DNA from: Sebaldella sp.
GTDB lineage: Bacteria > Fusobacteriota > Fusobacteriia > Fusobacteriales > Leptotrichiaceae
Reading direction: 5' to 3'
Assembly: GCA_018058425.1 (NCBI GenBank)
Contig: JAGOZX010000005.1
Span: 1-64,000 of the forward strand
Length of the DNA: 64,000 nucleotides
In this document: one piece after another, positions 9,179 to 21,430 of the stretch
Numbering within the stretch: position 1 is the first letter of the stretch
Layout of the letters: each line of letters starts with the position of its first letter
The notes under the pieces: generated by a model
Database searches by the model: none
What the model saw: the letters and a program-made list of their open reading frames with translations, nothing else
Told to the model about the DNA's origin: nothing
Made by a program: the position numbers and the translations under genes

Positions 9179-9254
9179 TAATTATAGCTCGAATTATAAT
9201 ATAATTCAACTAAGGATGTCGACACCCAAGCTTATTATAGGAGGAAATAAAAAA

Positions 9255-10187
9255 ATGGAAAAACGAAAAATTATTATAGACTGTGATCCAGGGCATGATG
9301 ACGCTATTGCCATCTTGATGGCTGCTAATAATCCAAAGCTTGATTTATTAGGTATCACAATAGTTGCAGGAAACCAGACACTTGAAAAGACATGTAAAAA
9401 TGGATTAAATGTGTGCCAGGCATTAAATATTAAAGTGCCTATATATGCTGGAGTACCACTTCCCATGGTACGAGAACAAGTAGTTGCTGCAAATGTCCAT
9501 GGAGAAACAGGACTTGATGGTCCAGTTTTTGGGCCACTCAAAATAAAAGCAGAAGATAAACACGCTATTTCCTACATAATTGAAACTCTTATGGCATCGG
9601 ATGGGGATATTACTCTTGTTCCAGTAGGTCCATTGACTAATATTGCTATGGCTATGCGTATTGAGCCAAGAATAATACCTAAAATTCAGGAAATTGTGTT
9701 AATGGGAGGAGCTTATTCGATTGGGAATTTTACACCATCTGCTGAATTTAATTTCTATGCTGATCCAGAAGCTGCTCATGTGGTGTTTACCTCAGGTGCA
9801 CCAATTGTAATGATGGGATTGGATTTAACTAACCAGACTATATGTACTAAAGATATAATAAAAAGAATGGAAGCTATTGGAAATAAGGCATCAGCTTTGT
9901 TTAGTGATATTATGAATTTTGTATTGAAATCACAAAAAGAAGCATTTGGTCTTGATGGCGGGCCTTTACATGATGCCACTTGTATTGCATATTTGACAGA
10001 ACCATCTCTCTTTACAGTGAAATCAATGTATACAGAGATAGATATAAAAAGTGAATTATGTTATGGACGTTCAGTTTGTGATGTTCTTGATGTACTAAAA
10101 AAACCACATAACACAAAGGTTGGAATGAATATCGATGTTGATGAATTTTGGAATATGGTTGAAAAGTGTATAAAGAATTATCAATAA
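9255..10187 (+). CDS. rihB: pyrimidine-type ribonucleoside hydrolase
   Basis: A 310-residue nucleoside hydrolase of the IUNH family, which cleaves the N-glycosidic bond of ribonucleosides to base plus ribose in the cytosol. The calcium-binding motif DCDPGHDD is at residues 9-16; further signatures are the LVPVGPLTN block and the C-terminal LHDATC motif with catalytic His and ligand Asp. Similarity to E. coli RihB (pyrimidine-preferring) is very high as far as I remember it ([35 protein letters not shown]), so I use that name. AGGAGG at 9239-9244 supports this ATG. With the yeiL-like gene it forms a divergent cassette whose close likeness to enterobacterial proteins suggests horizontal exchange. 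Confidence 0.93.
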
Positions 10188-10270
10188 GGTTACTGTATTT
10201 AGTTATTTATATCAAGATGAAATAAGTCTTTATTTGAGTACTAGATAACAAGAAAAGAATTGAAAGAATA

Positions 10271-10301
10271 AAAAAATACAGATATTTTTCTGTATTTTTT
10301 G
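10271..10301 (+). terminator. intrinsic terminator of rihB
   Basis: AAAATACAG / CTGTATTTT stem with a 7-base loop and T-run, about 85 bases after the rihB stop. Confidence 0.8.
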
Positions 10302-10310
10302 TAAGAAGAA

Positions 10311-10339
10311 TTTCAAAGCAGGAGAAAATATCTCCTGCT
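10311..10339 (-). terminator. hairpin terminator of the beta-glucoside operon
   Basis: Perfect 9-bp stem AGCAGGAGA / TCTCCTGCT (10317-10325, 10331-10339), 30 bases past the EIIC stop on the minus strand, followed there by a short T-rich tail. Confidence 0.7.
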
Positions 10340-10369
10340 AAGTATTGATGTTAAAGGTATTTCTAAAGT

Positions 10370-11650
10370 TTATACTTCCCCTAATTTACTTTCTTCTCTT
10401 AATTTTTGTTTTTCTACCATTTTGAAAAATGGATAATATATAACCAGACTTATTATTATCAATACTACTTGAAGAATGGCTCCCTTAGGACCTGAAACTA
10501 AAGCTCCACTTATTATAGTCGGCGTAGTCCAAGGAATTGCAACTCCTGATGTGTAAGGTACAAGTCCACTCCACATAGAAAAGTATGTAACTCCTGCTAG
10601 AATAGGTGTAGTCAGTATCCAAGGAATAAATAAAACTGGTGATAAAACTATAGGTAATCCAAATATAACGGGTTCGTTAATATTAAAGAGTCCTGCTGGT
10701 AGTGCTAAAAGCCCCAGAGTTTTCAGTTGTTTTGATTTTGAAGTAGCTAGTAAAAATACTAAAGGCAGTGTAGAACCTGAACCACCTATTTGTAAAAAGA
10801 CTTCTTTAAATTGTTTTGTAACTATATTTACTAATTCTGTGTGACCTTGGAAAGCTGATAAGTTTTCTGCTGATAATGCATACCAAATAGGATCCATTAC
10901 TCCTGAAACAATAGCATTTCCATGAAGACCAAAAAACCATAAAAGCTGTCCTAACATTTCAACCAAAATCATAGAAAAAAGGTTTCCGCCTAGTTTTTGA
11001 AGTGGTATTTGAAACATTTTAAATATTAGTTCTTGTATGCTTTCAAATGGTGTAAAGCCTATTAATAAACGTATTACTAAGAAAAGTACTGCTATTACAA
11101 AAATAGGAACTAGTGCTGCAAATGATTTTATAACGCCAGGTGGTACTCCATCAGGCATTTTTGGAGCTATATTCAGTCCTAATATAAATTTATATAATCT
11201 AGTAACAGATAGACCTATTAGTATATTTACAAGCATTCCCTGAGTTCCAAGCCATTGAAGAGAAATATTACCATCCTTCACTGGTGTTAGAATAAACAAT
11301 ACTGCTATACTTAAAACTATGGAAAGAATACTGTCTACTCCCAGCTCTCTTGAATAAAAATAAGCTGTTCCTACTAATACTATTAGAGCTATAATTCCAA
11401 AAGTGGCCCCAGTTATTAACGTTATTTTTTCCTGCCAACCCTCTCCAAATATTCCAGTTATAAATCCTTCATAACCAGGAATAGGAAGATACGCTAACAA
11501 TAAAAATACTGAACCAACTATTAAAAATGGCATTGCAGTTATCATTGTATCTTTTACAGCCATAAGCCATTTTGTAGAAGTAAGTTTATTAGCTATTGGT
11601 AACAATACTTTTTCTAATTTATTCATCATTTTTTCCAATGATTTTTCCAT
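10370..11650 (-). CDS. celB: PTS cellobiose/beta-glucoside-type transporter subunit EIIC
   Basis: A 426-residue polytopic membrane protein of the lactose/cellobiose EIIC family, with 8-10 hydrophobic segments and the conserved FNINEPVIFGLPI motif (about 310-322) that carries the substrate-binding Glu. It would import a beta-glucoside or oligosaccharide and phosphorylate it, given EIIA and EIIB partners. No EIIA or EIIB gene lies nearby, so it must borrow them from elsewhere in the genome. It is the last gene of a minus-strand operon after GH1 and the RpiR regulator. GGGAGG at 11655-11660 decides the ATG start; a TTG 12 bases upstream is discounted. Confidence 0.9.
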   Translation of the reverse strand: MEKSLEKMMNKLEKVLLPIANKLTSTKWLMAVKDTMITAMPFLIVGSVFLLLAYLPIPGYEGFITGIFGEGWQEKITLITGATFGIIALIVLVGTAYFYSRELGVDSILSIVLSIAVLFILTPVKDGNISLQWLGTQGMLVNILIGLSVTRLYKFILGLNIAPKMPDGVPPGVIKSFAALVPIFVIAVLFLVIRLLIGFTPFESIQELIFKMFQIPLQKLGGNLFSMILVEMLGQLLWFFGLHGNAIVSGVMDPIWYALSAENLSAFQGHTELVNIVTKQFKEVFLQIGGSGSTLPLVFLLATSKSKQLKTLGLLALPAGLFNINEPVIFGLPIVLSPVLFIPWILTTPILAGVTYFSMWSGLVPYTSGVAIPWTTPTIISGALVSGPKGAILQVVLIIISLVIYYPFFKMVEKQKLREESKLGEV

Positions 11651-11690
11651 ATTTCCTCCCAAATTAATTATTTACTGATTGAGTATACTT

Positions 11691-12368
11691 CTAAATTTCT
11701 TTTAAATTTATAAGTATTTTTTGAATTATTACAAATATTGGAAATATATTTTCACGATCAAATGAGTTTTCAGCTTTATAATTAGTAAAATCAAATGTTA
11801 TCGAATAATGTGATATTTTTTCAAGAAGTGATTTTTCTTTTGTTAGAGAAATAATTTTAGTCTTAATATCCCTTACATTACTATTTATCAAATCATTTTC
11901 ACCTGAATTACTAATACAAATTAATAGATCTTTTTCTCTAAAAAGCTTTTTATACTCTAAAAATTCAAATTCATCTCTTAGAGAAACAGCAAAGAAGCCT
12001 AAATTCACTAGTTGCCTAGAGAAATAATTTGATGCAAAACATGTGGCTTGTGTGGCTAAAACAAATATCCTGTCTGCCATTATGATCTCATCCATTATCT
12101 TCTCTAAGTCACCAGAATGAGTCATCTTTAAAAGATCATCTATTGCAACCTCTGTCATTTTCTTTTCTTCTTTTACTTTTTCCTGTGTTTCTTTTGAAAA
12201 TTTAAAATGTGAAAATGATTTATAACCCATTTTATTACATACTCTGTATATAGTTGTTCTGCTTACAAAAAGTTCTTTTGCTATTGTTTCAGCAGACTTA
12301 TTTGAAATATCTGTTCTTAGCAGATATTTATAAACATTATACTCATTTTCATTAAAGTCGTATTTCAT
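11691..12368 (-). CDS. RpiR-family transcriptional regulator with SIS domain
   Basis: A 225-residue regulator. The N-terminal HTH_6/RpiR helix-turn-helix (about 1-70; KSAETIAKELFVSRTTIYRVCNKMGY) is followed by a sugar-isomerase (SIS) sensory domain (about 85-220; the phosphosugar-binding loop is CISNSGENDLI). Such proteins sense phosphorylated sugars and usually repress the adjacent catabolic operon. Lying between the GH1 6-phospho-glycosidase gene and the EIIC gene on the same strand, it probably regulates this operon from the dyad at 13862-13886. It begins 27 bases after the GH1 stop. Confidence 0.9.
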   Translation of the reverse strand: MKYDFNENEYNVYKYLLRTDISNKSAETIAKELFVSRTTIYRVCNKMGYKSFSHFKFSKETQEKVKEEKKMTEVAIDDLLKMTHSGDLEKIMDEIIMADRIFVLATQATCFASNYFSRQLVNLGFFAVSLRDEFEFLEYKKLFREKDLLICISNSGENDLINSNVRDIKTKIISLTKEKSLLEKISHYSITFDFTNYKAENSFDRENIFPIFVIIQKILINLKEI

Positions 12369-12395
12369 AAATATATCCCCAATACTTTTCAGATT

Positions 12396-13805
12396 TTATT
12401 CGTACTTATCCTCCAAAGCCTCAAAACCATTCTCTTCTATTACTTTTTTTATCCAGTAACCTGATTTTTTTATTGTTCTGTTTCGTGTTTTAAGATCTAA
12501 AGAAACATAACCATATCTATTTTTATAAGCATTTGTCCACGACCAATTATCTACAAATGTCCATAAGTGGTAACCCTGACAGTTTGATCCCTCGTCCATT
12601 GCTTTACTCAGCCATTCTAAATGCTCTTTTATGAATTCTATTCTATAATCGTCTTCTATTATACCATCTTTATTTAGAAAACGCATTTCATCTTGAACAC
12701 CCATTCCATTTTCTGATATAAACCATTTTATATTACCATATTCATTTTTTACACGCATTGCTATATCATAAATTGTTTTTGGATATATTTCCCATCCTCT
12801 GTAAATATTCATCCTTCTATTTGGCATACTATAGTCTTCAAAATACCAGTTTGGTGTAAAGGGTGCATTTATATTAGGCGTAAATGTCGGTGCTTTTACA
12901 CGCTGCGGTTGGTAATAGTTTATTCCTATAAAATCTACTGTATTTTTTTTAATAAGTTCAAATTCTTCCATTGTGTAATCAAACATACAGTGATGTTTTT
13001 CAAGTATTTCTATATATTCATCATCATATTCACCTTTTACACAAGGATCCATAAATATTAAGTTAAAGAATAAATCGGCCACACGTGATGCATACAGATC
13101 AGCAGGTTCAGAGCTCCGTGGTATTGGTGGCAGAAGATCTACTACTATACCTATTTCTCCTCCTAAATTTAGTTCTCTATATGCTTTTGAGGCTCCTACA
13201 TGTGCAAGTAAGATATTATAGCTAGCTTGAGCAAATGATTTGGTATTTAATTCATTCGGATAAATAAAATCATGTAAATAAGCTCCTTTAGTATGAGCTA
13301 CAGGCTCATTAAAAGTTATCCATCTTTTTACCCTGTCACCAAACAACTTAAAAGCTGTGACTGCAAATTTAATGTAAAGTTCTGCTACAATTTTACTCTT
13401 GAATCCTCCATATTCTTTTTCCAGCTGAATTGGAGTATCAAAATGAAATAAATTCATCACAGGTTCTATTCCATTAGCTATCATTTCATCAATATAAGAA
13501 TTATAAAATTCTACAGCTTTAGGATCAGGTTCACCTGTTTCCAGATCTTTTATCAATCTTGTCCACTGTATTGATGTTCTAAAAGACTTTAATCCCAGTT
13601 CCTTCATTATTTTTATATCTTCTTTATAACGATGATACGAATCACAAGTAACTTTAGGTCCTACTTTCTCAAAAAAACGATCCTTATCCTTTTTATACCA
13701 GTAATCCCATACTGATTCGTGTAACTTATCTTTAGAACCTTCACTCTGTGGTCCGCTTGAAGCTGTTCCCCAGTCAAAATTTTCAGGAAAATTTATTTTT
13801 TTCAT
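12396..13805 (-). CDS. GH1 glycosidase, probable 6-phospho-beta-glucosidase
   Basis: A 469-residue, full-length glycoside hydrolase family 1 enzyme. The acid/base Glu167 lies in TFNEPVA and the nucleophile Glu365 in ISENGMG. Near the C-terminus, DNWSW (Ser422) replaces the NFEW found in non-phospho beta-glucosidases, which favours a 6-phospho substrate. However, the Lys of the usual Ser-Lys-Tyr phosphate pocket (LacG S428/K435/Y437 by my alignment) is Asn429, with Lys428 beside it and Tyr431 retained. The start at 13805 follows GGAGG; a longer frame to 13868 lacks a site. First gene of the operon with RpiR and PTS EIIC; the enzyme would hydrolyse the phosphorylated sugar delivered by the PTS. 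Confidence 0.88.
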   Translation of the reverse strand: MKKINFPENFDWGTASSGPQSEGSKDKLHESVWDYWYKKDKDRFFEKVGPKVTCDSYHRYKEDIKIMKELGLKSFRTSIQWTRLIKDLETGEPDPKAVEFYNSYIDEMIANGIEPVMNLFHFDTPIQLEKEYGGFKSKIVAELYIKFAVTAFKLFGDRVKRWITFNEPVAHTKGAYLHDFIYPNELNTKSFAQASYNILLAHVGASKAYRELNLGGEIGIVVDLLPPIPRSSEPADLYASRVADLFFNLIFMDPCVKGEYDDEYIEILEKHHCMFDYTMEEFELIKKNTVDFIGINYYQPQRVKAPTFTPNINAPFTPNWYFEDYSMPNRRMNIYRGWEIYPKTIYDIAMRVKNEYGNIKWFISENGMGVQDEMRFLNKDGIIEDDYRIEFIKEHLEWLSKAMDEGSNCQGYHLWTFVDNWSWTNAYKNRYGYVSLDLKTRNRTIKKSGYWIKKVIEENGFEALEDKYE

Positions 13806-13861
13806 GTCTATTACCTCCATAAATAAAATATAGCATAAAATATAAAATAAGTTGTCATTTC

Positions 13862-13886
13862 TGTACAATTGAACTCAATTTGTACA
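13862..13886. promoter_or_regulatory. candidate RpiR operator upstream of GH1
   Basis: A dyad TGTACAA-N11-TTGTACA with perfect 7-bp arms lies 57 bases upstream of the GH1 start. The minus-strand arm TTGTAC could itself serve as the -35 of a promoter with a TATATT -10 (spacer about 18), so a bound regulator would block RNA polymerase. Confidence 0.55.
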
Positions 13887-15087: not shown

Positions 15088-15278
15088 ATATTTTCTCCTT
15101 GATATCCTTTTTAAATTGATTATATAATTGTCTGATAAAGTTTGTCAAGTAATATGTAAGAGTATAAATATGAATATGATTATTTGAAAATAAAAGTAAG
15201 TGAAAATTCTTATTTTTATAATCAAATTTTTAAATTTATTAGAATAAAAAATATTATAAAATTAGAAGGCAGGTTTAT

Positions 15279-15306
15279 CAGTATAAAAATACTGGTAATT
15301 TTTTGT
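15279..15306 (+). other. hairpin with T-run upstream of the PRD regulator gene
   Basis: CAGTAT-AAAA-ATACTG (15279-15294) is followed by GTAATTTTTT. It looks like a small terminator or attenuator in the 290-base gap before the regulator gene. The opposite-strand gene starts at 15087 and points away, so this hairpin can only act on leader RNA of the PTS operon or on a transcript entering from the left. Confidence 0.4.
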
Positions 15307-15378: not shown

Positions 15379-17442
15379 ATGTTAAATCACAGAGAATTAG
15401 AATTATTAAGTTTTTTTGTGAAAAATCAGAAGTTTTCTTATGAAGAAATACAGAAAAAATACAAAATTTCAGAAAGGGCAGTTAGATATAATATTGAAAA
15501 TATAAATTATTTTTTAGAAGTATTAAAAATAAAACAAATACAGAAAAAGGATGGTTTCTTATATTTTGATAATACACAAGATATCTCAAGTATATATTCA
15601 TTATTAAGAGAAATTGAAATTTTTTCTCAAGTAGAGAGATTAGGAATACTAAAATTCATAATATGTTTTGATTCAAGCGGATTAAATCTAACTAAAATCT
15701 CTGAAAAATTAGGTGTTTCAAGAACAACTATAAAAAAGGACATGAAGATTTTGAAAAAGGAGTTGATACAAGAAGAGTTAAACATAGTTTATAAAAATAA
15801 TAATGGTTATAAGCTAAAAGGAGAGGCGTATAAAATAGAGTTATTTAAAATAAATGAGTTAAAAAGAAACTTAAATCCAATAATAAAGAATGAAAAAGAC
15901 AGTGCATTCAAAAAGGTAATGATAGAACTTTTTGAGTCATTACTTTTTTTAAAAGACACGAATAATATAAAAAAATTTATTTTAAATATTCAAAATGATT
16001 TAAATATAAGTGTTTCAGATGAAATTTTTGATGTTCTCTACGCGTACCTGATAATTCTAGTTACTAATGAAAGAGATATAGAGGAATTAGAGTTTGAGAC
16101 CACAAATAAAGGATTTTTAGAAGATACAAAAGAATTTATTTGTGTAGAAAAAGAACTTGGGAAAATTTTAGAGTTAGAAAATAGAAAACTATCTAAAGAA
16201 ATCATATTAAAATTAACGGATTTTATTCTAGGTATTACTACAAATAATTTTAATGTATATTATTTGGAAAATTGGATTCATGAAGAGATATTCATAAAAA
16301 AGATGATTAATGAATTTAATAAATATGTAGATATAGATATTTCAAATGATAAGGTGCTTATAGACTGTCTTATATACCACATGAAACCAGCCATATATAG
16401 AATAAAAAATAATGTGAAAGTATCAAATCCAGTTTTTAAAGAATTGATAATAAACAAAGATCCAGTTTTAGAATTAGTGAAAATAGTAATATCGGATATA
16501 GAAAAAATGTTTGGAATAAGTTTTCCAGAAGAAGAATTAGCACTTTTGGCCTTTCATTTTAAAGCCTCTGTGGATAGAAATACATACCAAAATCTAAAAA
16601 GAATACTCTTGGTTTGCGGGTTAGGATATGGGAGTTCAAGGCTTTTGGAACAAAGTATAAAAGAAAACTATAATGTAGACATAGTAGATGTACTTCCTTA
16701 TTACTTGTTAGGAGATGTTTTAAAAAACTATAAAAATATAGATTTAATCTTGACTACTCTGGATATAGAAGAGAAATTTGAAATACCAGTAGTTAAGATA
16801 AATCCCTTATTAAAACAGGAAGATTTTATAGAAATGTCTAAGTATAATATTCCTAAAAATGATAATAAGATATTTTTATCAAAAATTATAGAAATAATAG
16901 ATAAAAACTCTGATATTATTAGCAAAAAAAAATTGATTAATGATATAAAAAAAGAGTTTAAAAATAAGATAATCGATGATATTAACTACAAAGATATTCA
17001 TATAAAAGACTTTATTAATAATCAAAATGTCAGTCTGATTGACAAGGTAAAAGATTGGGAAGAGGCTGTAAGGATTTCTGGCAATTTACTAAAATTAGGA
17101 AAATGTGTGGATGATGGCTATATTGACGAAATGATAGAGCTGGTAAAGAAATATGGTTCATATATTGTGATTGATGATGGAATTGCCTTACCACATGCAG
17201 GTATAAGTAAAAATGTACTGAATACAGGAATTGGTGTATTGGTAGTAAAGGAGGCGGTATTTTTTCCAGATGGTAAGTCAGCAAATATATTTATATCTTT
17301 TTCGAGCAAAGATAACACTTCACATTTGAATATATTAAATGATTTGTTTAATTTTATAACTAAATGTGATTTAAAAAATAAATTGCTGAAAGCAAAAAAT
17401 AAGGAAGAAATAAAAAATTATTTTACAAAAATGAATTTTTAG
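15379..17442 (+). CDS. PRD-containing transcriptional regulator with PTS EIIB- and EIIA-like domains
   Basis: A 687-residue activator of the BglG/MtlR/LicR type. Two helix-turn-helix segments come first (about 1-60, and 85-135 with LGVSRTTIKKDMKILKKE), then two PTS regulatory domains (about 170-390), an EIIB-like domain with CGLGYGSS (Cys413), and a C-terminal EIIA-like domain with the phosphorylatable His606 in ALPHAG. Phosphorylation by PTS components would adjust its activity to sugar flux. AGGTGA at 15368 favours the ATG at 15379; GTG 15370 and ATG 15373 are alternatives. It heads the PTS-transketolase operon: the EIIA gene begins 11 bases after its stop, and its stop codon overlaps that gene's AGGAGG site. 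Confidence 0.92.
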   Translation: MLNHRELELLSFFVKNQKFSYEEIQKKYKISERAVRYNIENINYFLEVLKIKQIQKKDGFLYFDNTQDISSIYSLLREIEIFSQVERLGILKFIICFDSSGLNLTKISEKLGVSRTTIKKDMKILKKELIQEELNIVYKNNNGYKLKGEAYKIELFKINELKRNLNPIIKNEKDSAFKKVMIELFESLLFLKDTNNIKKFILNIQNDLNISVSDEIFDVLYAYLIILVTNERDIEELEFETTNKGFLEDTKEFICVEKELGKILELENRKLSKEIILKLTDFILGITTNNFNVYYLENWIHEEIFIKKMINEFNKYVDIDISNDKVLIDCLIYHMKPAIYRIKNNVKVSNPVFKELIINKDPVLELVKIVISDIEKMFGISFPEEELALLAFHFKASVDRNTYQNLKRILLVCGLGYGSSRLLEQSIKENYNVDIVDVLPYYLLGDVLKNYKNIDLILTTLDIEEKFEIPVVKINPLLKQEDFIEMSKYNIPKNDNKIFLSKIIEIIDKNSDIISKKKLINDIKKEFKNKIIDDINYKDIHIKDFINNQNVSLIDKVKDWEEAVRISGNLLKLGKCVDDGYIDEMIELVKKYGSYIVIDDGIALPHAGISKNVLNTGIGVLVVKEAVFFPDGKSANIFISFSSKDNTSHLNILNDLFNFITKCDLKNKLLKAKNKEEIKNYFTKMNF

Positions 17443-17453
17443 GAGGCATAAAT

Positions 17454-17885
17454 GTGCTAAAAAAGATTTTAGACGACAATATAATAATATTAGAGAGTAT
17501 TGATGATTGGAAGCAATCTATTAAAGCAGCTTCAAAGCCACTTGTAGATAAGAAAAACGTTTTAGAAAAATATGTAGAAATAATGATAAATGATATCGAA
17601 AAATTAGGGTTTTACGTAGTACTTAGAGAAGGTGCAGCAATGCCGCATTCTAGACCAGAAAATGGGGTATTAAAAACATCAATGTCATTATTAAAACTGA
17701 ATAAACCGGTAATGTATGGAGAAAATCCAATATATTTAGTTTTTGTCTTAGCAGCAAAAGACAGTGAAGAACATATAGAGGCGTTAACAAGTTTCTCAGA
17801 ATTATTACAAAATGATGAGGATGTAGAATTACTAATAAAAGCTAACGATATAGATAGTATTAGAAAAATAATTAATAAATATTAG
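17454..17885 (+). CDS. PTS ascorbate/fructose-type EIIA
   Basis: A 143-residue cytosolic EIIA of the mannitol/fructose/ascorbate (UlaC-like) type, with the active His65 in AAMPHSRPE. It would pass phosphate from HPr to the adjacent EIIB. The start is GTG at 17454 (AGGAGG at 17441-17446, 7 bases away). An overlapping ATG at 17452 is in another frame and stops after two codons. It belongs to the operon PRD regulator-EIIA-EIIB-EIIC-transketolase N-transketolase C. The resemblance to ascorbate EIIA reflects protein family, not proof of substrate; no ulaD, E, F or G homologue is present here. Confidence 0.92.
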   Translation: MLKKILDDNIIILESIDDWKQSIKAASKPLVDKKNVLEKYVEIMINDIEKLGFYVVLREGAAMPHSRPENGVLKTSMSLLKLNKPVMYGENPIYLVFVLAAKDSEEHIEALTSFSELLQNDEDVELLIKANDIDSIRKIINKY

Positions 17886-17897
17886 AGGAGGAAAACA

Positions 17898-18167
17898 ATG
17901 AGAATAATGGCAGTATGTGGATCAGGATTAGGAAGCAGCTTTCTTGTGGAAATGAATATAAAGAAAGTATTAGTAAAAATAGGTGTGGAAGCAGAGGTGG
18001 AACATTCAGATTTATCTTCAGCAACACCTGGAACAGCTGATTTATTTGTGATGGGAAAGGATATAGCAGAAAGTGCAAGTGTCCCAGAAGATAAATTAAT
18101 AGTATTAAATAATATTGTAGACATGGTTGAGTTAGAAGAAAAACTAAGAAAATGGTTTGGGAAATAA
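17898..18167 (+). CDS. PTS ascorbate-type EIIB
   Basis: An 89-residue EIIB of the ascorbate/galactitol fold. The phosphocysteine loop is at the N-terminus (VCGSGLGSSF, Cys7). It accepts phosphate from EIIA and donates it to the sugar during transport through the EIIC encoded next. GAGGAG upstream supports the ATG. Spacing is 12 bases from EIIA and 18 bases to EIIC, so translation is probably coupled. Confidence 0.93.
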   Translation: MRIMAVCGSGLGSSFLVEMNIKKVLVKIGVEAEVEHSDLSSATPGTADLFVMGKDIAESASVPEDKLIVLNNIVDMVELEEKLRKWFGK

Positions 18168-18185
18168 AAAATAGGAGGGAAAATT

Positions 18186-19544
18186 ATGGATGGATTATTA
18201 ATGTTTGTATTTGATATATTAAAAGTACCATCGGTTTTAGTTGGATTAATGGCATTTATTGGACTGGTAGCACAAAAAAAACCAGTAACAGATGTAGTAA
18301 AAGGGACAATAAAGACAATATTAGGGTTTATAGTTTTAGGTGGTGGAGCTGGAGTTTTAGTAGGCTCGTTAGACCCACTTGGAAAAATGTTTGAACATGC
18401 TTTTCATATTCAGGGAATAATTCCTAATAATGAAGCTATAGTCTCGATAGCATTAGGTAAATATGGAGCTATAACAGCTTATATAATGGCGTTTGGAATG
18501 CTTTTTAATATTTTAATAGCAAGATTTACTAGATTAAAATATATATTTTTAACAGGGCATCATACACTATATATGGCATGTATGATAGCGATAATACTAC
18601 AAGTGGGCGGTTTTCAAGGAATACAATTAGTACTAGTAGGATCGATCTTTTTAGGATTAGTAATGGCAATTTTTCCAGCAATGGCTCAAAGACATATGAG
18701 AAGAATAACTGGAAATGATGATATAGCTTTTGGACACTTTGGTACATTAGGATATGTATTATCTGGTTTTGTGGGAGAAGCAGTAGGAAAAGGATCAAAA
18801 TCAACAGAAGATATGAATCTTCCAAAAAATTTAAGTTTTTTAAGAGACAGTTCTATCTCTATATCTTTAACAATGATGATAATATACATAATATTAGCAG
18901 TATTATCTGGAAAAGAATTTGTCCAAACTAATTTAAGTAACGGAGATAATTATTTAGTTTACTCTATTATTCAGGCAATAACATTTGCAGCAGGTGTATT
19001 TATTATACTTTCTGGGGTTAGATTAATTTTAGCAGAAATAGTACCGGCATTTAAAGGGTTTTCGGAAAAAATAGTACCAGCAGCAAAACCTGCATTAGAT
19101 TGTCCAGTAGTATTTCCATATGCACCAAATGCCGTTTTAATAGGTTTCTTATTTAGCTTTTTAGGAGGGATAGTAGGATTAGTAATATTAGGACAGCTAA
19201 ACTTAGTACTTATATTACCAGGAGTAGTGCCACATTTCTTTACAGGAGCTACAGCAGGAGTATTTGGAAATGCTACAGGTGGAAAAAGAGGAGCAATGCT
19301 TGGGGCATTTGCAAATGGATTGTTAATAACTTTTTTACCAGTACTTCTTCTTCCAGTTTTGGGATCATTAGGCTTTGCAAATACGACTTTTTCAGATTCA
19401 GACTTTGGATTAGTAGGGATAATTTTAGGAAACATGTCAAAATATATGGATAAAAATATGATAACAGCTATTGCAGTGGGAATATTAGTAGTTTTAGTGG
19501 CATTTAATTTTTTACCAGGAAAAAAATCAAAAAAAACAGTATAA
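18186..19544 (+). CDS. PTS ascorbate-type transporter subunit EIIC
   Basis: A 452-residue membrane protein of the UlaA/SgaT family with about 11 hydrophobic segments. It shows conserved glycine-rich loops typical of this family (GGGAGVLVGSLDPLGKMF, TGHHTLYMA, FFTGATAGVFGNATGG). It transports a sugar or sugar acid and, with the upstream EIIB, phosphorylates it. The true UlaA substrate is L-ascorbate, but downstream transketolase genes in place of ascorbate-6-phosphate lactonase suggest another substrate such as a ketose. AGGAGGG precedes the ATG. Confidence 0.93.
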   Translation: MDGLLMFVFDILKVPSVLVGLMAFIGLVAQKKPVTDVVKGTIKTILGFIVLGGGAGVLVGSLDPLGKMFEHAFHIQGIIPNNEAIVSIALGKYGAITAYIMAFGMLFNILIARFTRLKYIFLTGHHTLYMACMIAIILQVGGFQGIQLVLVGSIFLGLVMAIFPAMAQRHMRRITGNDDIAFGHFGTLGYVLSGFVGEAVGKGSKSTEDMNLPKNLSFLRDSSISISLTMMIIYIILAVLSGKEFVQTNLSNGDNYLVYSIIQAITFAAGVFIILSGVRLILAEIVPAFKGFSEKIVPAAKPALDCPVVFPYAPNAVLIGFLFSFLGGIVGLVILGQLNLVLILPGVVPHFFTGATAGVFGNATGGKRGAMLGAFANGLLITFLPVLLLPVLGSLGFANTTFSDSDFGLVGIILGNMSKYMDKNMITAIAVGILVVLVAFNFLPGKKSKKTV

Positions 19545-19563
19545 AAATAGTAAGGAGGAACAA

Positions 19564-20397
19564 ATGGAAAATTATAAAGAAATCAAAAAATTAGCAAAAA
19601 GAATTAGGCTTGATGTACTAAAAATGTTAGTTAATCTTGGATTTGGACATTTTGGAGGAAGTCTTTCAGTAGTAGAAACATTAGCAGTATTATATGGAGC
19701 TGTGATGAAAGTAGATCCTAAAAACCCAGACTGGGAAGGCAGAGATTATATGGTGTTATCAAAGGGGCATGCAGGACCTGCACTATATTCAACTTTAGCT
19801 ATAAAAGGATTTTTTGAAGAAGCCGAATTAATGACTTTAAATATAAATGGAACTCATTTACCAAGTCATCCAGACAGACTTTTAACAAAGGGTGTTGACG
19901 CTACTACAGGATCATTGGGGCAAGGAATATCGATAGCAGCTGGAATAGCTTTAGCTGAAAGATTATCAGGGAAAGAAAATAGGGTTTTTTCAATAGTTGG
20001 AGATGGTGAATTAAATGAAGGTCAGTGTTGGGAGGCATTTCAGTTTATTGCACATCACAATTTAAATAATTTAGTAACATTTGTAGACTATAATAAACAG
20101 CAATTAGATGGGACTTTAGAAGAAATAATAAGACCATTTTCATTTGTGGAAAAATTTAATGCATTTGGTTTTGAAGCAGTACAAGTAAAAGGGGATGACA
20201 TAGAAGGAATATATAATCTTTTAAAAGATAAAAGAAATGAGAGCCAAAAGCCTTTAGTAGTAATTTTAGATAGTAAAAAAGGACAGGGAGTAAAGTATAT
20301 AGAAGATTTAAAAAATTCTCATCATTTAAGATTAACTGATGAAATAAAAATTGAAATAGAGAAAGCGATTATCGAGATAGAAAAGGAGGCAGAATAA
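19564..20397 (+). CDS. transketolase N-terminal (ThDP-binding) subunit
   Basis: A 277-residue protein equal to the N-terminal third of a classical transketolase. It contains the thiamine-diphosphate/Mg motif GDGELNEGQ...N (about 144-175), the FGHFGGSLS and SKGHAGPALY loops, and THLPSHPD. It would pair with the product of the next gene, whose start codon overlaps its stop (TAATG at 20395), to form a split transketolase that moves two-carbon units between sugar phosphates. Placed after a PTS, it probably acts on the phosphorylated sugar or a close derivative. AAGGAGG precedes the ATG. Confidence 0.95.
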   Translation: MENYKEIKKLAKRIRLDVLKMLVNLGFGHFGGSLSVVETLAVLYGAVMKVDPKNPDWEGRDYMVLSKGHAGPALYSTLAIKGFFEEAELMTLNINGTHLPSHPDRLLTKGVDATTGSLGQGISIAAGIALAERLSGKENRVFSIVGDGELNEGQCWEAFQFIAHHNLNNLVTFVDYNKQQLDGTLEEIIRPFSFVEKFNAFGFEAVQVKGDDIEGIYNLLKDKRNESQKPLVVILDSKKGQGVKYIEDLKNSHHLRLTDEIKIEIEKAIIEIEKEAE

Positions 20398-21353
20398 TGT
20401 ATAAGGTGTCAAAGGAAAGAAAAAAAGATGAATTAGAAATGAGAAAGGTTTATTCTGCTACTCTGAAAGAACTAATGGATAAAGATGAAAGAATAATAGC
20501 TTTAGAAGCTGATCTAATGAGTTCGATGACAATGGATGTACTTCAAAAAGAATTACCAAACAGAGTAATAAATTGTGGTATTATGGAAGCTAATATTATA
20601 GGAATGGCTGGAGGTCTGTCTATAGCGGGGAAAATACCTTTTGTTCATACATTTACAGCATTTGCAAGTCGTAGATGTTTTGATCAATTATTTATGTCAG
20701 TGTCTTATCAAAAGAATAATGTGAAAGTAATAGCCTCAGATGCAGGAGTGACAGCTGTTCATAATGGGGGTACACATATGTCTTTTGAAGATATGGGTAT
20801 AGTTAGAGGTCTCGCAGGTTCTATAGTTTTAGAGGTTACAGATGCTGTAATGTTTGCAAATGTAATTAAACAAATAGCTGAAAAATATGGTTTCTATTGG
20901 GTTAGAACTATGAGAAAAAATGCTGAAAAAATATACGAAGATGGTTCTACATTTGAAATAGGAAAAGGAAATATATTAAGAGATGGGAAGGATATAACTT
21001 TAATTGCTAATGGGATTATGGTATCAGAAGCATTAAAGGCAGCTGATAAGTTAGAAAAAGATGGTCATAGTGTTGCTGTTATAGATATGTTTACCTTAAA
21101 ACCTATAGATAAAGATCTTATAATTAAGTATGCTAAGCAGACAGGCAAAATAGTAACATGTGAAAATCATAGTATACATAATGGATTAGGTTCGGCTGTA
21201 GCGGAAGTTTTATCAGAAAATTATCCTGTGAAAATGAAAAGAGTTGGAATAAATGAAAGATATGGACAAGTAGGAACATTAGATTTTTTAATGAAAGAAT
21301 ATGGACTTACATCTGATAATATATACGAAGAGGCTAAAAAGCTGCTTGGGTAG
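20397..21353 (+). CDS. transketolase C-terminal subunit
   Basis: A 318-residue protein containing the pyrimidine-binding domain (about 15-180; the ThDP-activating Glu is in CGIMEANIIGMAGG, followed by PFVHTFTAFASRRCFDQ) and the C-terminal transketolase domain (about 190-315; IDMFTLKPIDKDLI). It overlaps the N-terminal subunit gene by one base, indicating translational coupling and 1:1 expression. It ends the operon before a strong terminator. Similar split transketolases are known in pentose and apiose breakdown (apulose-4-phosphate transketolase) and in PTS-linked clusters of enterobacteria; which reaction applies here is not determined by sequence. Confidence 0.95.
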   Translation: MYKVSKERKKDELEMRKVYSATLKELMDKDERIIALEADLMSSMTMDVLQKELPNRVINCGIMEANIIGMAGGLSIAGKIPFVHTFTAFASRRCFDQLFMSVSYQKNNVKVIASDAGVTAVHNGGTHMSFEDMGIVRGLAGSIVLEVTDAVMFANVIKQIAEKYGFYWVRTMRKNAEKIYEDGSTFEIGKGNILRDGKDITLIANGIMVSEALKAADKLEKDGHSVAVIDMFTLKPIDKDLIIKYAKQTGKIVTCENHSIHNGLGSAVAEVLSENYPVKMKRVGINERYGQVGTLDFLMKEYGLTSDNIYEEAKKLLG

Positions 21354-21393: not shown

Positions 21394-21430
21394 AAAAGTG
21401 CAGTCAAGTGCTATATGACTGCACTTTTTG
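21394..21430 (+). terminator. intrinsic terminator of the PTS-transketolase operon
   Basis: Perfect 13-bp stem AAAAGTGCAGTCA / TGACTGCACTTTT (21394-21406, 21416-21428) with a 9-base loop and T-run. Confidence 0.95.

Follow-up and report, generated by a model that had tools for sequence, protein, structure and literature searches.

Among the closest described systems to the operon reported here is the pneumococcal ula2 cluster (ulaR2-ulaB2-ulaA2-tktN-tktC; SP2131-SP2127, spd_1961-1957), which is expressed as a single transcript and combines an ascorbate-type EIIB and EIIC with a split transketolase encoded last (PMC4324149, PMC3302838). In S. pneumoniae D39, ascorbic acid induces ula2 approximately 2- to 3-fold through UlaR2, and no induction was seen with the 15 other carbon sources tested (PMC4324149). 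A ketopentose PTS has also been proposed for SP2129-30 (Bidossi et al. 2012). A cluster with the order IIA-IIB-IIC-TktN-TktC is located between yfcD and yfcC/pta-ackA in Salmonella, Klebsiella, Enterobacter, Serratia, and E. albertii; no functional study of the Salmonella representative, STM2340-2344, was found in the literature. The outline of this operon type is already known from ula2 and the enterobacterial cluster, as is the ketopentose PTS idea of 2012. Two other split transketolases are dedicated to particular sugars. AptA/AptB acts on apulose 4-phosphate in the degradation of D-apiose (PMC13001218), and SqwGH, which acts on 6-deoxy-6-sulfofructose, has a RAFDR head-group motif in which Asp replaces the phosphate-binding His (PMC11659671).

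Organization of the operon

The window analyzed here, 64,000 nucleotides of a Sebaldella sp. contig, contains six ORFs on the plus strand whose names are all supported by Pfam and NCBIfam. The first (15379-17442) encodes a PRD transcriptional regulator for which HTH_11/HTH_Mga, a single significant PRD, and a C-terminal EIIA_2 domain were matched, and inspection of the translation revealed CGLGYGSS, a stretch resembling EIIB, as well as the His of EIIA within ALPHAG. Its start is ambiguous (GTG 15370, ATG 15373, or ATG 15379). The regulator gene is followed after 11 bases by a gene for an EIIA of the EIIA_2 fold (17454-17885; PF00359, 107.6 bits; active-site His in AMPHSRPENG), after another 12 by one for an EIIB of the lactose/cellobiose/ascorbate type (17898-18167; active-site Cys in CGSGLGSS), and after 18 by one for an EIIC of the ascorbate (UlaA) superfamily (18186-19544). 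The N-terminal, thiamine diphosphate subunit of a transketolase (TktN, 19564-20397) is encoded 19 bases further on, and its ORF shares one base, at 20397, with that of the C-terminal subunit (TktC, 20397-21353), which consists of the pyrimidine and C-terminal domains. The operon is closed by an intrinsic terminator-like hairpin (21394-21428) with a 13-bp stem (21394-21406 / 21416-21428) of zero mismatches, a 9-base loop, and a T run at its end (MFE -17.4 kcal/mol, z -3.9); a simple scanner overlooked this hairpin because its loop maximum was 8. The gene order, coordinates, short gaps, and 13-bp terminator given in a first-pass annotation made from the letters alone were thus confirmed from the ORFs, domain matches, and folding.

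As in ula2, ascorbate-type IIB and IIC are followed by TktN and TktC within one cluster, and the linked regulator has the HTH, PRD, EIIB-like, and EIIA architecture of the streptococcal form, matching the description of SP2131 (PMC3302838). The separate EIIA gene of the window operon is missing from most pneumococci, although it is present in strain G54 (PMC4324149). The protein comparisons below draw on the enterobacterial and Niallia orthologues. Matches from a promoter scan were not commoner than in shuffled sequences. A palindrome 5′ of the regulator gene on the plus strand (TTATCAGTAT-aaaa-ATACTGGTAA, 15275-15298) was examined as a candidate operator or leader hairpin. It has no counterpart at the equivalent place in two same-genus orthologues (L123 and L124), so no operator is claimed.

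Distribution and gene neighborhood

Orthologues were identified in 27 of the 98 Fusobacteriota genomes, in many Enterobacterales, and on one Bacillota (Niallia) plasmid, with conserved partners in Fusobacteriota, Enterobacterales/Pasteurellaceae, and the Niallia plasmid. This survey of the gene neighborhood returned the same PTS and split-transketolase set across three phyla, and the arrangement is therefore not due to chance. The Salmonella cluster of similar content that the first-pass annotation had mentioned does exist, in the yfcD–yfcC/pta-ackA region. Compared with the window proteins, those of the enterobacterial cluster are 75-79% (IIC), 67-73% (TktC), and 66-73% (TktN) identical, and both the IIC pocket and the TktC signature described below are the same, whereas a divergent LacI-type regulator takes the place of the PRD regulator. 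The enterobacterial flanks (his, yfc, pta-ackA) were considered as a clue to the substrate and discarded as conserved chromosomal synteny, which is uninformative.

Conservation of the set bears on whether the transketolase acts on the PTS product at all, or instead recycles or diverts a different metabolite, the two functions being merely co-regulated. Three Fusobacteriaceae genomes (G004, G005, and G006) carry a same-clade transketolase without adjacent PTS genes, accompanied in G005 and G006 by TalC, and in a fourth genome (G097) a same-clade transketolase lies inside an inositol-type cluster that also encodes an MFS sugar porter. Against such a reading, which we regard as quite unlikely, each of the 27 Fusobacteriota genomes whose IIC is 68% or more identical has a TktC of at least 54% identity nearby, the arrangement is conserved in three phyla, and TktN starts 19 bases after IIC.

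Substrate pocket of the EIIC

The 11 positions at which UlaA contacts ascorbate were taken from PMC6048161, and the comparison of the pocket was rechecked with an independent pairwise alignment; homologues of solved structure could be aligned across the pockets. At UlaA positions 86, 87, 135, 136, 139, 194, 195, 314, 358, 362, and 410, the window IIC carries N, E, H, H, Y, H, F, D, V, F, and D. Five of these are sharp changes (T/P86N, Y87E, I136H, Q139Y, and Q195F), and M410D is probably a sixth. Orthologues from three phyla all carry the same replacements, and the UlaA of the same genome retains the ascorbate-contact set. The genome also has a true ula operon on a separate contig (C164), whose genes are 74% (ulaG), 56% (ulaD), 43% (ulaE), and 57% (ulaF) identical to those of E. 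coli. When E. coli UlaG, UlaD, UlaE, and UlaF were searched against the window, zero matches were obtained at E 1e-8, in agreement with the earlier observation that the operon encodes no ascorbate-6-phosphate lactonase, decarboxylase, or epimerase. The canonical ulaABCDEF/ulaG operon and the window operon have the EIIC superfamily, the EIIB, and the EIIA fold in common, but the canonical operon has the lactonase, decarboxylase, and epimerases together with the contact residues, whereas in the window operon the enzymes are absent and the residues are replaced. Together with the separate ula operon, the replaced contacts make ascorbate an unlikely substrate, and the claim that this is not a true ascorbate operon is supported.

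If the operon were a second ascorbate system, the role claimed for ula2, its PTS would import ascorbate and its transketolase would handle pentose phosphates arising from the main ula enzymes. The UlaR2-dependent response of ula2 in D39 to ascorbate and to none of the 15 other carbon sources (PMC4324149) fits such a role, a pneumococcal ula PTS mutant is only partly defective on ascorbate and so leaves room for a second importer (PMC3302838), and the window IIC does fall within the UlaA superfamily. We nevertheless consider it very unlikely, as five and probably six of the 11 UlaA contacts are replaced by residues invariant across three phyla, the genome's own UlaA keeps the contact set, a complete ula operon is present elsewhere in the genome, and the split transketolase of a true Fusobacterium ula operon (L172) has a His461/Asp469 pair that the window TktC does not.

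Active site of the split transketolase

TktN and TktC keep the thiamine-diphosphate and catalytic residues E411, H26, H66, H100, D155, N185, H261, and F434 (E. coli TktA numbering). In the phosphate-binding site of TktC, R358, S385, and R520 are also kept, but relative to a standard transketolase His461 is replaced by Asp and Asp469 by Asn. The TktC clade forms one monophyletic group (tree support 100/100), and each of the 21 members placed in the tree has Asp461 and Asn469. His461 and Asp469 are kept in L172 and in a split-transketolase paralogue (C114), and a separate fused Tkt of 659 aa on contig C27 of the same genome has canonical residues, which supports the view that the operon does not encode the housekeeping enzyme. 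The split transketolase of Carboxydothermus hydrogenoformans (PDB 6yaj/6yak), the best PDB match for both subunits, likewise keeps the standard His and the GEDG motif, unlike the window TktC. These replacements suggest an altered substrate pocket and, given the His/Asp pair of L172 and C114, the donor is probably something other than ordinary xylulose 5-phosphate. An Asp at the phosphate-binding His position, although PTS products carry a phosphate, fits a non-standard donor; it could also point to a transketolase substrate other than the PTS product.

The same residues bear on a plain ketopentose PTS, which would import D-xylulose or D-ribulose as the 5-phosphate, to be fed by the transketolase into the pentose phosphate pathway. 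This corresponds to what Bidossi et al. (2012) proposed for SP2129-30, and the TalC-type transaldolase encoded directly 3′ of TktC in Fusobacteriaceae versions of the operon would complete the non-oxidative pathway. However, the presumed users of xylulose 5-phosphate (L172 and the fused housekeeping Tkt) retain both His461 and Asp469 where all 21 clade members have Asp and Asn. In addition, sister IICs with the same pocket except Y139F are paired with a transaldolase or with PfkB and a class II (FBP-type) aldolase, the latter pair being better suited to hexuloses. We consider a plain ketopentose PTS unlikely, and the sugar is probably not plain D-xylulose.

The first-pass annotation had hinted at a branched-sugar pathway through apiose and apulose, and AptA/AptB and the window TktN/TktC are indeed both two-gene transketolases dedicated to one sugar. 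That kinship did not survive comparison, and an apiose role is hardly credible: AptB of E. coli SE15 shares 28% identity with TktC over 287 residues, and its head-group positions are nearly all different (A358, T385, A434, N461, L469, and G520). The apiose system also relies on an ABC transporter and an FGGY kinase rather than a PTS, and no FGGY kinase, ABC transporter, or sugar isomerase is encoded near the window operon. At the positions of the reported sulfo-TK motif RAFDR (PMC11659671), the window TktC has R358-S385-F434-D461-R520, and Fusobacteriaceae orthologues of TktC have R-A-F-D-R. The sulfo-TK pathway also uses a split heteromeric transketolase, and a bifurcated transketolase and transaldolase route is known there as well. 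In contrast, the window operon has a PTS transporter, and no sulfoquinovose isomerase or sulfonate genes were found among the translations of adjoining genes.

Proposed pathway and candidate sugars

With moderate confidence, we propose that the operon serves the PEP-dependent PTS uptake and transketolase catabolism of a ketose other than ascorbate. This proposal is built on the gene content, kinship, intact PTS phosphorylation and thiamine-diphosphate residues, altered pockets, and separate ula operon. As we infer the direct action on the PTS product, the direction of flux, and the mode of regulation, EIIA, EIIB, and EIIC would import and phosphorylate the sugar, and the heteromeric transketolase would transfer the C1-C2 glycolaldehyde unit of the PTS product onto an aldose phosphate, for example glyceraldehyde 3-phosphate, yielding xylulose 5-phosphate or another pentose-phosphate intermediate and leaving an aldehyde phosphate of shorter chain. 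Once the substrate drains phosphate from the PTS, the PRD/EIIB/EIIA regulator would turn the operon on. Uptake by the PTS followed by direct transketolase cleavage is plausible, and the ketose phosphate donor put forward in the first-pass annotation remains the most economical choice. A ketose is indicated, indirectly, by the transaldolase in Fusobacteriaceae and by the pairing of sister IICs with transaldolase or with PfkB and aldolase, because the transketolase, transaldolase, PfkB, and aldolase partners all act on ketose phosphates.

More tentatively, and with somewhat less than even confidence, we suggest that in this clade the PTS-linked transketolases are specialized for a ketose not used with transketolase in any described pathway. 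In that case, an unrecognized short pathway of uptake and direct ketol cleavage, routinely mislabeled as ascorbate use, would be common to Salmonella, Klebsiella, Serratia, Leptotrichia, Sebaldella, and possibly streptococci. The operon is common among gut, oral, and plant-associated bacteria, pathogens included, and the usual annotation of its IIC is ascorbate PTS. The IIC pocket and transketolase signatures provide concrete grounds to doubt that annotation and a short list of testable residues and sugars, and they set these specialized split transketolases apart from others whose role is confined to the pentose phosphate pathway. The replacement of the IIC pocket beside a true ula operon in the same genome, the signature of the TktC clade, and the links to transaldolase and to PfkB and aldolase are new.

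Hexuloses are among the possible sugars, as are longer or epimeric ketoses recognized differently at the far end. One candidate considered was sedoheptulose, whose 7-phosphate is a possible substrate of transketolase, of transaldolase, and of PFK/aldolase; nothing relevant to its uptake by a PTS was found in the literature. D-Allulose and other epimeric hexuloses were considered because the cleavage removes the C3 center, and on present data these candidates and sedoheptulose stand equal.

Organization and distribution of the operon

Six forward-strand genes (15379-21353), identified from ORFs and domain matches, encode a PRD regulator, PTS IIA, IIB, and IIC, and the N- and C-terminal transketolase subunits (TktN and TktC). 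Intergenic gaps are 11, 12, 18, and 19 bases, the transketolase genes overlap by 1 base, and the operon ends in a perfect 13-bp stem followed by a T run, in agreement with the first-pass annotation. Inspection of the translations showed that the phosphorylation sites are intact, both in the PTS proteins (the IIB Cys and IIA His) and in the EIIB- and EIIA-like parts of the regulator. Positions 9216-13868 hold a nucleoside hydrolase and, on the opposite strand, a cellobiose-type PTS IIC, an RpiR-type regulator, and a GH1-type glucosidase, all named from translations only.

The operon is a further case of a known kind. The same regulator architecture, together with IIB, IIC, TktN, and TktC genes, recurs in the ula2 operon of Streptococcus pneumoniae (SP2131-SP2127), a single transcription unit with UlaR2 as activator that is induced about two- to three-fold by ascorbic acid (PMC4324149) and for which Bidossi et al. 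put forward ketopentose transport, as a proposal only (PMC3302838). The PTS-transketolase cluster of Salmonella mentioned in the first-pass annotation was located between yfcD and yfcC/pta-ackA, but its regulator is LacI rather than PRD. Most of the window-type operons found by a scan of genome contigs belong to Enterobacterales (Rahnella, Serratia, Klebsiella, Enterobacter, Citrobacter, E. albertii, and others), where TktC shares 67-73% identity with the window TktC. A further copy lies on a Niallia plasmid. An IIC at least 68% identical to the window IIC is present in 27 of 98 Fusobacteriota genomes, in all 27 near a TktC at least 54% identical. In one Salmonella record (CP148755.1, L117:10482-11466) the TktC gene is split into two overlapping frames, unannotated there; other enterobacterial copies are intact.

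The IIC pocket and the ascorbate question

Queries with E. coli UlaG, UlaD, UlaE, and UlaF gave no matches within the window. Homologs 74%, 56%, 43%, and 57% identical, respectively, lie in a full ascorbate (ula) operon on contig C164 of the same genome. In the structure of the ascorbate EIIC, UlaA, 11 core residues contact ascorbate (PMC6048161); T86, Y87, H135, I136, Q139, H194, Q195, D314, I358, F362, and M410 correspond to N, E, H, H, Y, H, F, D, V, F, and D in the window IIC, and to P, Y, H, I, Q, H, Q, D, V, F, and N in the UlaA of the window genome. A separate pairwise alignment confirmed the window IIC positions except 410, which lies past its end. Apart from V/I variation at 358, every close orthologue (Fusobacteriota, Pseudomonadota, and Niallia) has the same residues as the window IIC, and the polar replacements would be expected for a neutral sugar. 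Given the full ula operon elsewhere in the genome and the replaced contact residues, ascorbate is an unlikely substrate.

The transketolase active site

TktN and TktC retain every thiamine-diphosphate and catalytic residue that was examined. In TktC, Asp stands in place of His461 (E. coli TktA numbering), a phosphate ligand, and xHNGGTH in place of the GEDGP(S/T)H motif, which changes Asp469 to Asn. Asp469 of transketolase reads the hydroxyl adjoining the cleaved bond. In the tree of sequences compared, transketolases with Asp/Asn fall into one group (support 100/100). His and Asp are kept in the genome's own fused housekeeping transketolase, in its second PTS-linked split transketolase, on contig C114, and in the split transketolase of a true ula operon from Fusobacterium (L172); genome G024 carries both forms, in that operon and in a window-type operon (L130). 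Because these comparators keep His/Asp, the window-type enzyme is probably specialized and not simply a xylulose 5-phosphate enzyme. For this operon family, the analysis as a whole speaks against two substrates proposed in the literature, ascorbate and plain xylulose, and supplies a residue signature by which the substrate question becomes testable. A precedent for a changed head-group motif is the sulfofructose split transketolase, in which RAFDR replaces RSFHR and has been tied to a different head group (PMC11659671); the window enzyme has RSFDR at those positions and its Fusobacteriaceae orthologues RAFDR.

The apiose pathway suggested by the first-pass annotation is very unlikely: AptB, the C subunit of the apulose-4-phosphate transketolase of E. 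coli SE15, shares 28% identity with the window TktC, and almost all of its pocket residues are different.

Clues to the sugar

A TalC-type transaldolase gene directly follows TktC in Fusobacteriaceae (L129, L130, L131, L132, and L155). IICs 50-58% identical to the window IIC share its pocket except for Tyr139 to Phe; after them comes either a transaldolase gene (L128 and L150) or a PfkB kinase gene, in most cases accompanied by one for a class II ketose-bisphosphate aldolase (L137-L148); the IIC on contig C120 of the window genome is paired with a phosphofructokinase and a class II aldolase. As these partners all act on ketose phosphates, they support a ketose substrate, with no single sugar favoured; hexuloses or heptuloses are at least as likely as pentuloses. 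The most economical reading is that proposed earlier, in which the sugar would be imported by the PTS and the product then cleaved directly by the transketolase.

Related clusters

Window-clade TktN-TktC pairs lacking adjoining PTS genes occur at L162 (G006), L163 (G005), and L164 (G004), with TalC alongside in the first two. The ula operon of G024 (L172:7052-17115) comprises ulaA-G, the split transketolase, whose residues are canonical, and a transaldolase of the TalC type. In the distant Fusobacteriota genome G097 (contig C107, L178:53-2029 and L165:1043-9673), a split transketolase of the Asp/Asn clade accompanies IolD, IolE, IolG, a tartrate/D-malate-type dehydrogenase, a type II glyceraldehyde-3-phosphate dehydrogenase, phosphoglycerate kinase, and an MFS sugar porter; neither IolC nor IolJ is among the genes read in this cluster. 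It could be an inositol route, with the transketolase cleaving 5-dehydro-2-deoxygluconate to malate semialdehyde, which would proceed to malate, with a gain of ATP, and then pyruvate.

Two HAD phosphatases flank the second PTS/split-transketolase operon of the window genome (C114, L118:8283-14148), which is 46% (IIC), 39% (TktN), and 33% (TktC) identical to the window operon; the pocket of its IIC is of a third type (A E Q H Y H Y). Another uncharacterised PTS cluster of the window genome lies on contig C21 (L121:7528-10893), where a phosphotriesterase-family protein and a creatininase-family protein adjoin a IIB-IIC pair of the ascorbate type.
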